From: Candidatus Levybacteria bacterium RIFCSPHIGHO2_02_FULL_37_13
Lineage (GTDB): Bacteria; Patescibacteriota; Microgenomatia; Levybacterales; UBA12049
DNA length: 32,381 bases
Direction of reading: 5' to 3'
NCBI GenBank assembly: GCA_001782195.1
Contig: MFNZ01000001.1
Coordinates: forward strand, 1-32,381
Under the pieces are notes generated by a model. That model made no database searches, was not told where the DNA came from, and saw nothing but the letters and a program-made list of their open reading frames with translations. Both the position numbers and the translations under genes were made by a program. Shown in pieces: positions 4,264-9,519 of the stretch. Every line of letters begins with the position of its first letter. The stretch's first letter is position 1.

Positions 4264-4841
4264 AAAGATCTTTTGAAATCAAGTCGTCTTTTAAGTAATT
4301 TCTCGTTATATCCTCCCTCGCGTTGGTGCTTATCCTCAACAGCATTTATCTGGCGGTCAAGCAAGTATCCGCTTCTTATCAAAAGATCTATCAGATAGTT
4401 TACTACTGCTTCCAATCCTTCTTTCCCTTCTAATCTTCCTAATACTTCGTGGACGTTTGTTACTGAGGGACGAGAGAGAATAGGTGAATTAGAGGGATTG
4501 GATGAGTATCCTTCAAATATTTGACGAAGATTCCTAAGTCTTGTGTCGTCTTTGTTCCAGCGTGGCAAATTTTCAAGACGTAAAATATCTTCAAAGTCTT
4601 CCAAGGCTTCCATGCCAGAGGCTTTCGCAACATCATAGAGTTTTAGCTTTGAAGATAAACTTCTTTCTGCTGATCCCTCGACGATATTCTGTTTATGTGA
4701 ACGAAGGGCCTGTTTTATTTGATCTCTTTGGCGGGAATCCTCGAACTTTTTGTAATACTGTGGCACAAAATCCCAACCCAAATCGAATGCAATTTGAGCT
4801 AACTTGTAGCTAATAAGACTCTTATATCCCGCTTCCGCCAT
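4260..4841 (-). CDS. Four-helix bundle suffix domain protein
   Basis: 193 aa from ATG 4841. The N-terminal half (SYKLAQIAFDLGWDFVPQYY, RQRDQIKQALRSHKQNIVEG) matches the S23/avd-type four-helix bundle fold, and the C-terminal half (ANYL-like VVNYLIDLLIRSGYLLDRQI, then HQREGGYNEKLLKRR) matches the four-helix suffix domain. It is alpha-helical and probably oligomeric; the function is unknown, although relatives are often associated with structured RNA insertions or diversity-generating elements. I prefer ATG 4841 to an in-frame TTG at 4847 because an extended -10 box (TGC-TATGCT, 4850-4858) lies 8 nt upstream of the ATG. It converges on the alcohol dehydrogenase. Confidence 0.78.
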   Translation of the reverse strand: MAEAGYKSLISYKLAQIAFDLGWDFVPQYYKKFEDSRQRDQIKQALRSHKQNIVEGSAERSLSSKLKLYDVAKASGMEALEDFEDILRLENLPRWNKDDTRLRNLRQIFEGYSSNPSNSPILSRPSVTNVHEVLGRLEGKEGLEAVVNYLIDLLIRSGYLLDRQINAVEDKHQREGGYNEKLLKRRLDFKRSF

Positions 4842-4937
4842 TTGCAATTAGCATAGCACAATTTGCTTCCGTTGTAGCATTTCATCCTCAAAAATAGCAA
4901 AACCATTCTGAACAATGCAACATTTTTCCATATTTGC

Positions 4938-4952
4938 TATAATCGCCTCATG
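4938..4952 (+). promoter_or_regulatory. Extended -10 promoter, leaderless start of the dehydrogenase
   Basis: TGC-TATAAT with TATAAT at 4938-4943, then exactly 6 nt (CGCCTC) before ATG 4950. Transcription should start at the A of the ATG. There is no Shine-Dalgarno sequence. Confidence 0.7.
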
Positions 4953-5900
4953 AAATTTAAAAAGATTCTAGTTTACAATATTGATAGATCTAAAAACCTA
5001 GACCCCAAGTCTTGGAAGACAATAGAAAGTTTTGGGGAGAAAATTGCTTTCGTTCCAAAAGACAGCCCCAAATTAAAACAGGAACTAGCAGATACAGACT
5101 GCGTGCTTGTTGCTTTCGGAACAGTTATTGGCAAAGAAGAAATAAATGCTGCATCTAAGCTTAAATACATCGGAGTCATGGCAACCGCTTTTGGGAAAAT
5201 CGACACAAATTATGCAAAAAAGAAAAAAGTAATTGTCTCCAACCTCAAAGGATATAGCACGGAATCTGTTGCTGAATTTATCTTTGCCGCGATTTTAGAA
5301 CAATCAAGAGGTTTGGAAGAAGGAAAAAGAAGAGGAAAGTCTGGTAATTATTCAGAAATTGGCATATCCGCAAATGAAATAAAGGATAAAATCTTTGGTG
5401 TTATTGGTTTGGGAACAATTGGCAAAAGAGTTGCGGAAATAGCTCTAGGTTTTGGTGCAAATGTAAAATATTGGTCAAAAAATAGAAAAAATGATTATGA
5501 GAAAAAAGGCATTAAATATGAAGCCTTAGATAAATTAATCAAAGAAGCAGATTATTTATCTATTAATCTTGCTCAAGCAAAAGAAACAGAAAAAATATTT
5601 GACAAAAATAGATTTCAGAAAGTTAAGAGTGGGGCAGTTTTAATAAATACAGCGCCAATGGAATTAGTTGACATTGACGGATTGGAGTTAAGGCTTAAAA
5701 AGGGAGATATTACTTTTATTTTGGATCATTCTGATGAAATGTCAGAAAAAGACCTAAAGACACTTTTAAAATACAAAAACTGCATCATTTATCCGCCGAT
5801 TGCTTATGTTTCCAAAGAAGCAGCGGAGAATAGAAGAAGAATATTTATTGAAAATATTGAAGGTTTTCTAAAAGGCAAACCCCAAAACGTTGTCAATTAA
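4950..5900 (+). CDS. D-isomer 2-hydroxyacid dehydrogenase (NAD-dependent)
   Basis: 316 aa, close to family length. The NAD-binding signature is GVIGLGTIGKRVAE (from about residue 151), followed by the substrate-domain pattern KSGAVLINTAPMELVDIDGL, and the family's C-terminal FLKGKPQNVVN. In the usual catalytic Arg-Glu-His set the Arg position reads TAPMEL (NTAR in typical members) and the His position reads PPIAY (often PH), so active-site residues look altered and activity may be unusual. It is likely cytoplasmic. It is followed after 3 nt by the ACT-domain gene. Its last ten codons are part of the 52-bp repeat shared with the ridA end at 7955-8006. Confidence 0.85.
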   Translation: MKFKKILVYNIDRSKNLDPKSWKTIESFGEKIAFVPKDSPKLKQELADTDCVLVAFGTVIGKEEINAASKLKYIGVMATAFGKIDTNYAKKKKVIVSNLKGYSTESVAEFIFAAILEQSRGLEEGKRRGKSGNYSEIGISANEIKDKIFGVIGLGTIGKRVAEIALGFGANVKYWSKNRKNDYEKKGIKYEALDKLIKEADYLSINLAQAKETEKIFDKNRFQKVKSGAVLINTAPMELVDIDGLELRLKKGDITFILDHSDEMSEKDLKTLLKYKNCIIYPPIAYVSKEAAENRRRIFIENIEGFLKGKPQNVVN

Positions 5901-5921
5901 ACCATGGATAAAAAATTAAAG
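5870..5921 (+). repeat. 52-bp direct repeat, copy A (dehydrogenase/ACT junction)
   Basis: It matches 7955-8006 at 50 of 52 positions; the only two differences are CC versus GT just before the downstream ATG. It covers the last codons of the dehydrogenase (KGKPQNVVN, stop) and the first six codons of the next gene (MDKKLK). Confidence 0.95.
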
Positions 5922-6299
5922 AAAATAATTGAATCAAGTACTTTTGAAGTAATCCACGGAAGGTTTGTTTATACTAAAGTATCTAAGGAGCCGCAGATAA
6001 GTAACCATTTTTTGATTTCAAAGGATAAAGACGAGATTACCGTTGTAACAGAAGAAGCCAATTTGAGCGAACTTGAAATTCTTGAAAAGAATAAGGATTA
6101 TTGGACGCTTATCGCGCTGAATGTTTCTGCTCCGTTTTATTCAGTCGGTTTCTTAGCGGCTGTTAGTTCTGCAATTGCAAAGGCAAATAGAGATGTACTT
6201 ATCGTATCAACCTATTCCAAGGATTATATTTTGGTGCAATATGATTTTTTGGATGGAGTAAAACAAGTTCTGCTTACTTTAGGGTTTAAGGAGAAATAA
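5904..6299 (+). CDS. ACT-domain-containing protein
   Basis: 131 aa. The C-terminal two thirds (WTLIALNVSAPFYSVGFLAAVSSAIAKANRDVLIVSTYSKDYILVQYDFLDGVKQVL) fit a stand-alone ACT domain of the type with the pattern hxL-nVxapfxxvG...sxAxIxxlvvStYxxDYiLv, a ligand-binding regulatory fold that usually senses amino acids. There is no catalytic domain. It starts 3 nt after the dehydrogenase stop, so the two are probably co-translated and may work together on an amino-acid-derived 2-oxoacid. The first six residues are shared with the unrelated protein at 7989 through the 52-bp repeat. Confidence 0.8.
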   Translation: MDKKLKKIIESSTFEVIHGRFVYTKVSKEPQISNHFLISKDKDEITVVTEEANLSELEILEKNKDYWTLIALNVSAPFYSVGFLAAVSSAIAKANRDVLIVSTYSKDYILVQYDFLDGVKQVLLTLGFKEK

Positions 6300-6312
6300 A
6301 TGGATAACATGT

Positions 6313-6414
6313 ATGGGTAAATTTGCCAAAAATCCTAAAATTTGCACGGAGAAAAATTTTGTTCGGGATCAACAACGTCATATTCTACAAGAGCCTAAAA
6401 TGAAAGTCCCATAA
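6313..6414 (+). CDS. Possible 33-aa ORF or gene remnant
   Basis: ATG 6313 opens a 33-codon frame with balanced composition (MGKFAKNPKICTEKNF, then VRDQQRHILQEP), lying in the gap after the ACT gene. There is no ribosome binding site and no recognised family. It may be a small gene or the relic of a larger one; the evidence is weak. Confidence 0.25.
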   Translation: MGKFAKNPKICTEKNFVRDQQRHILQEPKMKVP

Positions 6415-6430
6415 TTAATGTTTTTGACCG

Positions 6431-6459
6431 TTGATTTTTTCTGCATAACGACGTATAGT
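6431..6459 (+). promoter_or_regulatory. Promoter of the Clp-fold protease gene
   Basis: TTGATT (6431-6436), a 17-nt spacer, then TATAGT (6454-6459). The predicted start near 6466 rules out the upstream TTG (6464) as initiator and favours a later start for the protease. Confidence 0.5.
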
Positions 6460-6526
6460 ATGTTTGAAAATAACATATGTGAAGTACGCTTCGATATTGA
6501 AGTCGTCGACAGTTTTAGTGATTTTT

Positions 6527-7390
6527 ATGAATGAGGACTTACATTTGCTTCTTCGGGAATTAGCTCGAATAAGAAAGAGACCATTATTGGTATTCAATTC
6601 TGTAGACATCCAACCTGAGTCAGTAATTTTAACTGAGAAAGTTCTTGGTTCTAAAAAATTTCAGGAGTTGGACATACTTGTTCAGACTCCTGGAGGCGAT
6701 CCTCATTCAGCATTCAAGATTGTCAAGCTTTTTAGAAAAAATGCAAAGAAAGTCAACATCATCGTTCCGTTACTTGCAAAAAGCGCAGGTACTTTAATCT
6801 GTTTAGGAGCAGATAAAATTATCATGTCTGAAATTTCAGAACTAGGTCCATTAGATACCCAAATAGCAGAGTCCAGACAAGGCGATGTCCAATTTAAATC
6901 AGCTTTGAATGGTTTTAAGGCACTTGAGCAAGTGCAAACACATGCATTAGAAAACTTAGATATTGCTACAAGAGTTATCTATGAAAGGAGCGGTTTAAAA
7001 ATGTTAGAGGCGATTGAATTAGCCATCGAATTTTCAGGTAAAACTAGTGCATGCTTATACAATCAATTAGACCCCATGAATATAGGCGAGTATAAAAGAT
7101 CTCTTGAAATTTCCGAAAGATATGGTCATTTAATTTTAATTAATTTAATGGGATGGTCCAAAGAAAAAGCTCATTCCGTAGCTATGTCCTTAATTTATGA
7201 TTATCCCTCTCATGATTCAATCATAGACATGGAAGAATTAAAAAGGCTTGGTTTTGATACAGTAGAAATTGAGGAAAATCAAAAGGAAGTCCTAGATAAA
7301 ATAAAAATAAGACTTCAAAAAGAAAATGGGGATTTTATTCACCTTGTTGAAAACAATAAAAGAAAAAATTCAAAGAATGTTGTACAATAA
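6527..7390 (+). CDS. SDH-type (serine dehydrogenase proteinase) Clp-fold protease
   Basis: 287 aa from ATG 6527; the frame is open further upstream (GTG 6479, TTG 6464) and the start is uncertain. The Clp/crotonase fold is clear: DILVQTPGGDPHSAFKIVKLFR, then IIVPLLAKSAGTLICLGADKIIMSEISELGPLDTQI. Ser86 in AKSAGT is the likely nucleophile, and GPLDTQI is the SppA/SDH family landmark. Members of this family are membrane-associated or cytosolic serine peptidases; no transmembrane segment is seen in the chosen frame. The C-terminal 40 residues are charged (KEVLDKIKIRLQKEN). A 57-aa gene follows after 3 nt, probably translationally coupled. Confidence 0.83.
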   Translation: MNEDLHLLLRELARIRKRPLLVFNSVDIQPESVILTEKVLGSKKFQELDILVQTPGGDPHSAFKIVKLFRKNAKKVNIIVPLLAKSAGTLICLGADKIIMSEISELGPLDTQIAESRQGDVQFKSALNGFKALEQVQTHALENLDIATRVIYERSGLKMLEAIELAIEFSGKTSACLYNQLDPMNIGEYKRSLEISERYGHLILINLMGWSKEKAHSVAMSLIYDYPSHDSIIDMEELKRLGFDTVEIEENQKEVLDKIKIRLQKENGDFIHLVENNKRKNSKNVVQ

Positions 7391-7393
7391 AAT

Positions 7394-7567
7394 ATGATGT
7401 TCAACCAAAGTCAAAAATCAAAAAAAGGAAAGGTAGAAAGTATATCTGAGATAGTGCAGAGGGAGATTAAAAAAACTAGAGAAACGGTAAGAGAGATTAT
7501 TTCTACTACAAGAAATGAATCAAAATCTAGAGCGTCTCATATTAGTGGAACTGACAAGTATTTGTAA
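7394..7567 (+). CDS. 57-aa basic helical protein coupled to the SDH protease
   Basis: ATG 7394 is 3 nt after the protease stop, and the frame runs 57 codons to TAA 7565-7567. The protein is rich in Lys, Arg, Glu and Ser (KVESISEIVQREIKKTRETV), with heptad-like Ile/Val spacing that suggests one amphipathic helix or short coiled coil. No family is recognised. The spacing suggests a partner, adaptor or inhibitor of the protease. There is no Shine-Dalgarno sequence, consistent with re-initiation. Confidence 0.55.
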   Translation: MMFNQSQKSKKGKVESISEIVQREIKKTRETVREIISTTRNESKSRASHISGTDKYL

Positions 7568-7583
7568 TTTGTCTTAGAATTTT

Positions 7584-7985
7584 ATGAAGCAGAAAGTTGA
7601 AGCTGATAAAGCCCCGAAGGCTACTGGGCCGTTTTCGCAGGCGATAATTTCCGGCAATTTAGTTTTTACTTCAGGACAAGTTTATTTAACACCGGAAGGA
7701 AAGTTACTAGAGGGAACTATTGAAGATCAAACTCATCAGGCTATGAAAAATTTGCAGGAAATTTTGAAAGCTGCAGGCGTGGCTTTTTCTGATGTTGTAA
7801 AAACAACTATTTATGTAACTGATATGGCTAATTATGGAAAAATCAATGAGGTTTATGGCAGTTATTTTTCTGACCCCTTTCCTGCAAGAGAAACAGTTTG
7901 CGTAAAAGAACTTCCGCTTGGTGCAAAATTAGAAATCAGCATGATCGCATTTGCAAAAGGCAAACCCCAAAACGTTGTCAATTAA
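7584..7985 (+). CDS. ridA: RidA family reactive-intermediate deaminase
   Basis: 133 aa. Family signatures are KAPKATGPFSQAI, NLVFTSGQVYLTPEG, NLQEILKAAG, VVKTTIYVTDMANYGKINEVY and PARETVCVKELPLGAKLEISMIA; the Arg in PARETV is the catalytic substrate-binding residue. RidA hydrolyses reactive enamines/imines such as 2-aminoacrylate. Most RidA proteins end shortly after the (I/V)E(I/V)xxIA strand; here nine extra residues, KGKPQNVVN, follow and are identical to the end of the dehydrogenase at 5900. They come from the 52-bp repeat, so the tail looks acquired by recombination rather than native. Confidence 0.93.
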   Translation: MKQKVEADKAPKATGPFSQAIISGNLVFTSGQVYLTPEGKLLEGTIEDQTHQAMKNLQEILKAAGVAFSDVVKTTIYVTDMANYGKINEVYGSYFSDPFPARETVCVKELPLGAKLEISMIAFAKGKPQNVVN

Positions 7986-8006
7986 AGTATGGATAAAAAA
8001 TTAAAG
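7955..8006 (+). repeat. 52-bp direct repeat, copy B (ridA/membrane-protein junction)
   Basis: 50/52 identical to 5870-5921. It gives RidA the foreign tail KGKPQNVVN and the next gene the start MDKKLK. Confidence 0.95.
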
Positions 8007-8672
8007 GTAGTTCTTTCAACGCCCCTTCTATTTGCAAAAGTATTCAAAAAAACTAAGATAGATAATTTTGTGGGAGGATTAATTATTGGTGCGATATTTA
8101 GCCTTGTTATTAATATCATTACAGTAAGGACGCAGGAAGTTATAACCAAACAACGAGCTCTGGAAGCAATAGAGAGAGAAATTTCTTTACATTTTACAAG
8201 CGCTTCGTCAATTCTAAATAGCGCTCAAAGGGTTGTAACTGCGTCTTCTAAAAGTACAATAAATATAGATGGCGATATGGCAATAAGATTTTCAACGAAG
8301 GTATGGGATAACACAGAGGTTTATAAATATATATTCGAAATTGATCCAGATACTTCAGCTCTAATAGATGGATATTATGGGGTTGTGGTTCCATACACAA
8401 ATAGACTCTTAGAGGAGAACTATAGTATCTACAAGACTATTTACGAACCATGTAAGCCCTTTTATGAATTAATTTCTGGTAAGAAACCACAAAGCAATGA
8501 GAATTGTCTAGAAATTATTAAAGGTTCGATGAGCTTACAGGCTAGAGTATTGAACTTATTAGTAGAGAAGCAACCTGAATTAAGAAAAAAATTTCACCCA
8601 ACAAGAGACAGGCTTAATAGTTTTTGGTTAAGATTGTTATTAGGAGATAAGGCTGTTAATCTATTAAGATAG
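7989..8672 (+). CDS. Single-span membrane protein of unknown function
   Basis: 227 aa. After a basic N-terminus and residues KVFKKTKIDN there is one clear transmembrane segment (about 30-47, GGLIIGAIFSLVINIITV), then a helical region (QRALEAIEREISLHFTSASS) and a mixed C-terminal domain with two Cys (EPCKPFYELI, NENCLEII). No family is recognised. It begins 3 nt after ridA inside the 52-bp repeat, so its first six residues equal those of the ACT protein and its original start may lie elsewhere. Confidence 0.6.
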   Translation: MDKKLKVVLSTPLLFAKVFKKTKIDNFVGGLIIGAIFSLVINIITVRTQEVITKQRALEAIEREISLHFTSASSILNSAQRVVTASSKSTINIDGDMAIRFSTKVWDNTEVYKYIFEIDPDTSALIDGYYGVVVPYTNRLLEENYSIYKTIYEPCKPFYELISGKKPQSNENCLEIIKGSMSLQARVLNLLVEKQPELRKKFHPTRDRLNSFWLRLLLGDKAVNLLR

Positions 8673-8741
8673 TAGAACGGGAAGTGAAATTTATTGTAGT
8701 GTTTTTATCTCAGAAAATGCTAAAATCAACCCAAAGAATCA

Positions 8742-9389
8742 ATGAGTAAAATAGTCGGATATTTTTCTACCGGTCAGACATGGAGAGTGATTGACGAAAA
8801 AGAATATAGAAAGGTTTTCTTATTAAATCCCAATTTAGCCATCTCCTATTTAAAACACGAAATTATGGAATCTGTTGAAAGAGAAATGGGAGTAATACTT
8901 TCAGGAACAAAAGCAGGTTTTTATGCTGGCCTTAGGTTTCTATTCCCAGAGGTAGTTCACCTAGCACATCTTTATTATGGATACAAAGGGAACGATTGGA
9001 AATTTAAAGAAAGTAAGTTTACTGCACGTTTTATGAGAAAATTTAAAATTTTATATCCACAGTGTGGATTATATTTCGAGGTTTTTCGTCATGGATTAAT
9101 TCACGGTCACCATCCAAAGTGGTTGAGAAAAGGAAAGTCCGTAAACGAATGGTATGTAAGTAACACCGAGAAATTAGACATGTTTGGGGTCTCTCTTCCA
9201 GAACTTACAAAAACAATAAAAACAGCAATACTAGAATTTATAGATGAGTTAGAAAATAAAAATGCAAATAAAAATAGATATAGGTTGCGTAAATTTCTTG
9301 ATGCGTTATCAGACTGTGGAAAAATCCTCAAAAAGAAAGACTTGAAGGGTTATGCTAAGTATGACAAAAGAAGAAATCCTGAAGTTTAA
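8742..9389 (+). CDS. Hypothetical protein with a RHGLIHGHHP motif
   Basis: 215 aa, soluble and basic. The sequence is well formed: YLKHEIMESVEREMGVILSG, then YFEVFRHGLIHGHHPKW, then an amphipathic C-terminal helix and a Lys-rich tail. The clustered His motif could bind metal or nucleic acid, but I recognise no family. A TGC-TAAAAT box lies 15 nt before the ATG. It stands just ahead of two toxin-antitoxin modules, so an accessory or defence role is possible but unproven. Confidence 0.6.
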   Translation: MSKIVGYFSTGQTWRVIDEKEYRKVFLLNPNLAISYLKHEIMESVEREMGVILSGTKAGFYAGLRFLFPEVVHLAHLYYGYKGNDWKFKESKFTARFMRKFKILYPQCGLYFEVFRHGLIHGHHPKWLRKGKSVNEWYVSNTEKLDMFGVSLPELTKTIKTAILEFIDELENKNANKNRYRLRKFLDALSDCGKILKKKDLKGYAKYDKRRNPEV

Positions 9390-9394
9390 TTAAG

Positions 9395-9418
9395 AGAATT
9401 TAATGATTCTTGCGTTTT
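9395..9418 (+). terminator. Weak hairpin plus T run
   Basis: AGAAT (9395-9399) and ATTCT (9406-9410) form a short stem, followed by TGCG and a run of seven T. It follows the 8742 gene and is a weak rho-independent terminator candidate. Confidence 0.35.
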
Positions 9419-9519
9419 TTTGAGGTTGACGTTATTAAAACACTAGTTTTTGGAATTTGGAGTGGGCTATGACAAAATTTTATATATGGTAAATTGTATG
9501 CTAATATGGTAATATATTT

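Follow-up and report, generated by a model that had tools for sequence, protein, structure and literature searches.

Short-patch double illegitimate recombination is reportedly a process in which short intragenomic segments replace DNA elsewhere in the genome, directed by microhomology, and DprA limits such events in other organisms. Tandem duplication and deletion, both frequent in bacteria, likewise leave the end of a gene repeated downstream in direct orientation when they occur at short repeats. We analyzed a 32,381-nucleotide stretch of Candidatus Levybacteria bacterium RIFCSPHIGHO2_02_FULL_37_13 (contig MFNZ01000001.1, positions 1 to 32,381, hereafter the window), in which the junction between two genes is repeated at a second, unrelated gene junction. 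As in short-patch recombination, a short segment of the same genome has come to lie at an ectopic site with sharp junctions, where microhomology is plausible; unlike in that process, what we have here is only an evolutionary footprint, and the patch bridges the stop codon of one gene and the start of the next. The reading we favor, to which we assign a probability of roughly 0.6, is that the junction of a dehydrogenase gene and an ACT-domain gene was copied in one step, via microhomology, onto the junction of ridA and a membrane-protein gene. The event belongs to a known kind of short duplication, of which it is a clean, well-resolved single instance.

The repeat is direct, spans 57 nucleotides (5865-5921 and 7950-8006) at 93% identity and has a spacing of 2085 nucleotides. 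The first-pass annotation had reported a 50/52 match between its core copies, 5870-5921 (copy 1) and 7955-8006 (copy 2), both on the forward strand, with a shared KGKPQNVVN-stop and MDKKLK; repeat comparison and the open reading frame (ORF) list bear this out. At both copies, one ORF closes with KGKPQNVVN and a stop codon and the next opens with MDKKLK. The only two mismatches are adjacent and lie in the 3-nucleotide spacer between the stop and start codons (CC at 5902-5903, GT at 7987-7988), so that the coding parts of the two core copies are identical, synonymous sites included. Between them the copies hold the longest exact repeat of the window, at 32 nucleotides, compared to a maximum of 19 nucleotides in 50 first-order Markov simulations of the same sequence. 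Convergence of the two protein tails is ruled out by the identity of synonymous sites across these 32 nucleotides. A search of the organism's own genome, an assembly of 66 contigs that totals 1.09 Mb and is 84% complete, recovered the repeat in two copies only, and viral contigs yielded no exact hit for the 31-mer at the junction. Folding of both copies was no better than that of shuffled sequences, and a promoter scan of 4800-9500 gave sites at chance level with none inside either copy; a functional RNA or shared structure and a shared promoter were rejected on these grounds. The top promoter-like site in that scan, CTGACA-18-TAGAAT (10/12), lies at 7551-7580, just upstream of ridA.

Copy 1 comprises the tail of the dehydrogenase gene, its TAA stop codon, the 3-nucleotide spacer and the start of the ACT gene. 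The dehydrogenase, a D-2-hydroxyacid dehydrogenase of 316 amino acids (4950-5900, forward strand) and the proposed tail donor, matched both the catalytic and NAD-binding domain models (PF00389 and PF02826), and no NCBIfam equivalog scored above its cut-off. Its C terminus reads FLKGKPQNVVN. Recognizably the same motif closes all 12 close dehydrogenase relatives (49 to 76% identity, with some at 71 to 76%), which span Levybacteria, Curtissbacteria, other Patescibacteria, Aenigmatarchaeota and Micrarchaeota, with a Levybacteria genome holding the nearest named one. It also closes the dehydrogenase of genome G332, from another family of the same class, bringing the count to 13 of 13 checked. The proposed head donor, an ACT-domain protein of 131 amino acids (5904-6299, forward strand; Pfam ACT_7), directly follows the dehydrogenase. 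In G332, 8 nucleotides separate a 75% identical dehydrogenase with the tail FLKGKPQNVVN from the next gene, whose ACT-domain product shares 82% identity with that of the window, and the DNA of the two genomes is colinear without a break through the junction over 1,357 bp (locus L087, 4838-6193, against window positions 4950-6300). Relatives of the ACT protein start M-N-x-x-LKKIIE or similarly, which aligns to MDKKLKKIIE in the window; the ACT start in G332 likewise aligns to LKKIIE. Because the tail is kept in dehydrogenase relatives and G332 is colinear across the junction, these comparisons show both halves of copy 1 to be native and the dehydrogenase-ACT junction to be ancestral. A dehydrogenase match also lies near the ACT gene, in the opposite order, in genome G125 (locus L078); this nearness and the adjacency in G332 suggest that the two proteins form a functional pair. 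The ACT-domain protein itself is rare: of 374 genomes in the class, 9 encode it when the organism's own is counted (loci L073 and L078 being among the occurrences).

At copy 2, the KGKPQNVVN tail belongs to RidA, a protein of 133 amino acids (7584-7985, forward strand; Pfam PF01042) that carries 9 to 10 extra C-terminal residues. The protein is a full-length match to its family, scoring above the cut-off of TIGR00004 over residues 3 to 123 (3.1e-44), and residues 124 to 133 fall outside the match; the best-matching solved RidA chains similarly end their match at query residues 121 to 126. Past position 112, RidA of the window extends 21 residues compared to 12 to 15 in some 45 relatives. None of the approximately 45 relatives examined ends in KGKPQNVVN, although one (at locus L124) has an unrelated cysteine-rich extension. 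Identity to RidA of genomes G310 and G316 reaches 82 to 84% at the protein level and 79% at the DNA level, and the DNA match of ridA to its nearest relatives (loci L100 and L101) ends at 7948, just before copy 2, which marks this copy as the derived one. The first-pass annotation had called the tail native to 2-hydroxyacid dehydrogenases and foreign to RidA. Its presence in 13 of 13 dehydrogenases and its absence from some 45 RidA relatives uphold that view, and such comparisons show the RidA tail to be foreign; no sign emerged of the tail being widespread in relatives of RidA, which the same annotation had named as the outcome that would tell against it. A native AFAK end of ridA is plausible, because RidA relatives end in AFK or AVAK. 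Since the RidA domain is complete to its usual end, the change has probably had little if any effect on function.

The right side of copy 2 opens the membrane-protein gene (227 amino acids; 7989-8672, forward strand), whose product has no Pfam match and whose first six codons are those of the ACT gene. Three informative relatives (35 to 40% identity) open with MRRL, MRKF and MKRA, that is, M-[K/R]-[K/R], and not with MDKKLK. From the start to the conserved G in the DNF..GG region, 30 residues are found in these relatives and in the MDKKLK version alike. Such an unchanged length points to a replacement in register, which fits a right-hand junction that arose around the start codon, where microhomology is plausible. 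Borrowing from the ACT gene start, which had earlier been proposed as the probable source, is the best explanation of the first six residues of the membrane protein, and we infer it strongly. The argument for the head is nonetheless weaker than that for the tail, because the relatives are distant and the native start had to be inferred from them.

In the proposed route, a patch made up of the last ~10 codons of the dehydrogenase gene, the stop codon, the 3-nucleotide spacer and the first six codons of the ACT gene would have landed about 2 kb downstream, on the junction of ridA and the membrane-protein gene. The event would have lent RidA a 9-residue tail and the membrane protein a new start that keeps its original register, with the spacing of stop, 3 nucleotides and start kept in the new junction. 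This was probably achieved in a single short-patch event, whether by templated copying or by double illegitimate recombination, with priming by microhomology such as TTTnnAAAA at the left end and the A-rich stretch around the start codon at the right end. TTTnnAAAA is present at the left junction in both copies, breakpoints are sharp on both sides of the patch, and a donor is identifiable in the same genome, copy 1 being native dehydrogenase-ACT DNA. The copying is recent on an evolutionary scale. With regard to the means, the genome carries comEC, a DNA-uptake gene that is required for natural transformation in Saccharibacteria (PMC10633639), and no match to the DprA family was detected in it (84% complete). 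Given comEC, DNA uptake by this bacterium is possible; we take the argument no further than that.

The main rival to one-step copying is a tandem duplication that took in everything between the dehydrogenase tail and the last codons of ridA and was joined by microhomology; almost the whole second copy would then have been deleted, such that the tail and the ACT head were left over, fused to the membrane-protein gene. Such a history yields the same order and orientation, with the repeat downstream and direct, its two steps are each common in bacteria as a matter of general knowledge, and the breakpoints fit it and one-step copying equally. It calls, however, for two events with independent breakpoints, the second of them both in frame and in register with the membrane-protein start. 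No remnant of a second copy lies between 8006 and the body of the membrane gene, and no duplicated gene is left over, since ridA and this kind of ACT gene each occur once in the genome. We consider this sequence of events unlikely, while giving it more weight than the alternatives that follow.

One of these sees in the repeats a duplicated target site or attachment site, marking the edges of a block that was inserted or can be excised. Direct repeats do flank such a block, which holds the ACT gene, a ClpP-like/SDH-type protease-related gene (6527-7390, 287 amino acids from the ATG; PF01972 over 79 residues, NCBIfam Clp_like_SDH far below its cut-off), a small ORF of 56 amino acids that fell into no family (7397-7567) and ridA, all on the forward strand, and one repeat copy restores the dehydrogenase end, as in some integrative elements. 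Yet G332 has the dehydrogenase and ACT genes adjacent without a second copy, which argues that no insertion begins at the left repeat; with that junction ancestral, copy 1 is not where the block came in, and a mobile-element boundary was rejected, leaving this reading very improbable. Searches of the block's gene products against Pfam and NCBIfam found no recombinase, integrase or transposase family. The first-pass annotation had further suggested that the repeats could permit loss or circle-out of the intervening genes, which finds no support, as copy 1 sits in an uninterrupted ancestral junction, no recombinase is encoded, no deletion form was seen and nothing points to circle-out. The 52-bp copies could physically recombine with each other, an event that would fuse the dehydrogenase to the membrane-protein gene and remove the ACT gene, the protease gene and ridA, but there is no evidence for it. 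An assembly or binning artefact might be suspected in a fragmented draft of 66 contigs; we rate it the least probable explanation of all, given that the copies differ at two internal bases, their flanks are unique, the exact stretch is only 32 nucleotides and native ridA sequence would have no overlap with the dehydrogenase tail that could permit a false join.

Read as a copy, the junction would be a clean trace, left in nature, of a short stretch copied within the genome of an uncultivated bacterium; both donor and recipient can be identified, and two proteins changed together. It also carries a caution, namely that short tails and heads common to neighboring genes can be mutational rather than functional in origin. 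We think it improbable that the copied junction was kept as a ready-made, translationally coupled stop-start unit and that junction copying builds operons and gene tails in this lineage. In a survey of 345 kb, about a third of the genome, with 324 ORFs of at least 100 amino acids, the dehydrogenase and ridA formed the only pair to share a tail, and a control set of 324 segments taken from the middle of genes contained not one that was repeated. As no other ORF pair shares a tail, the junction copy is a one-off, and not a genome-wide process, in the 345 kb sampled.

Repeats in these 345 kb are mostly dispersed palindromic families, simple-sequence runs, paralogues and tRNA genes. Several dispersed families have units of 60 to 130 bp, some clearly palindromic (REP/MITE-like) and mostly intergenic, and reach up to 14 copies. 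They resemble the junction repeat in being short repeated DNA; the latter, in contrast, has two copies, is coding and shows no special structure, and its membership in a repeat family was rejected for its copy number. In addition, a 32-nucleotide repeat (31/32) is found in locus L126 at 7696-7727 and 9109-9140 (the organism's own contig C1, about 59.7 and 61.1 kb). Its first copy covers the final codons of a 1,228-residue open frame together with the stop; 1.4 kb further downstream this sequence closes a 29-residue frame as well, in a copy that adjoins a dispersed repeat; this is possibly a second, smaller gene-tail copy.
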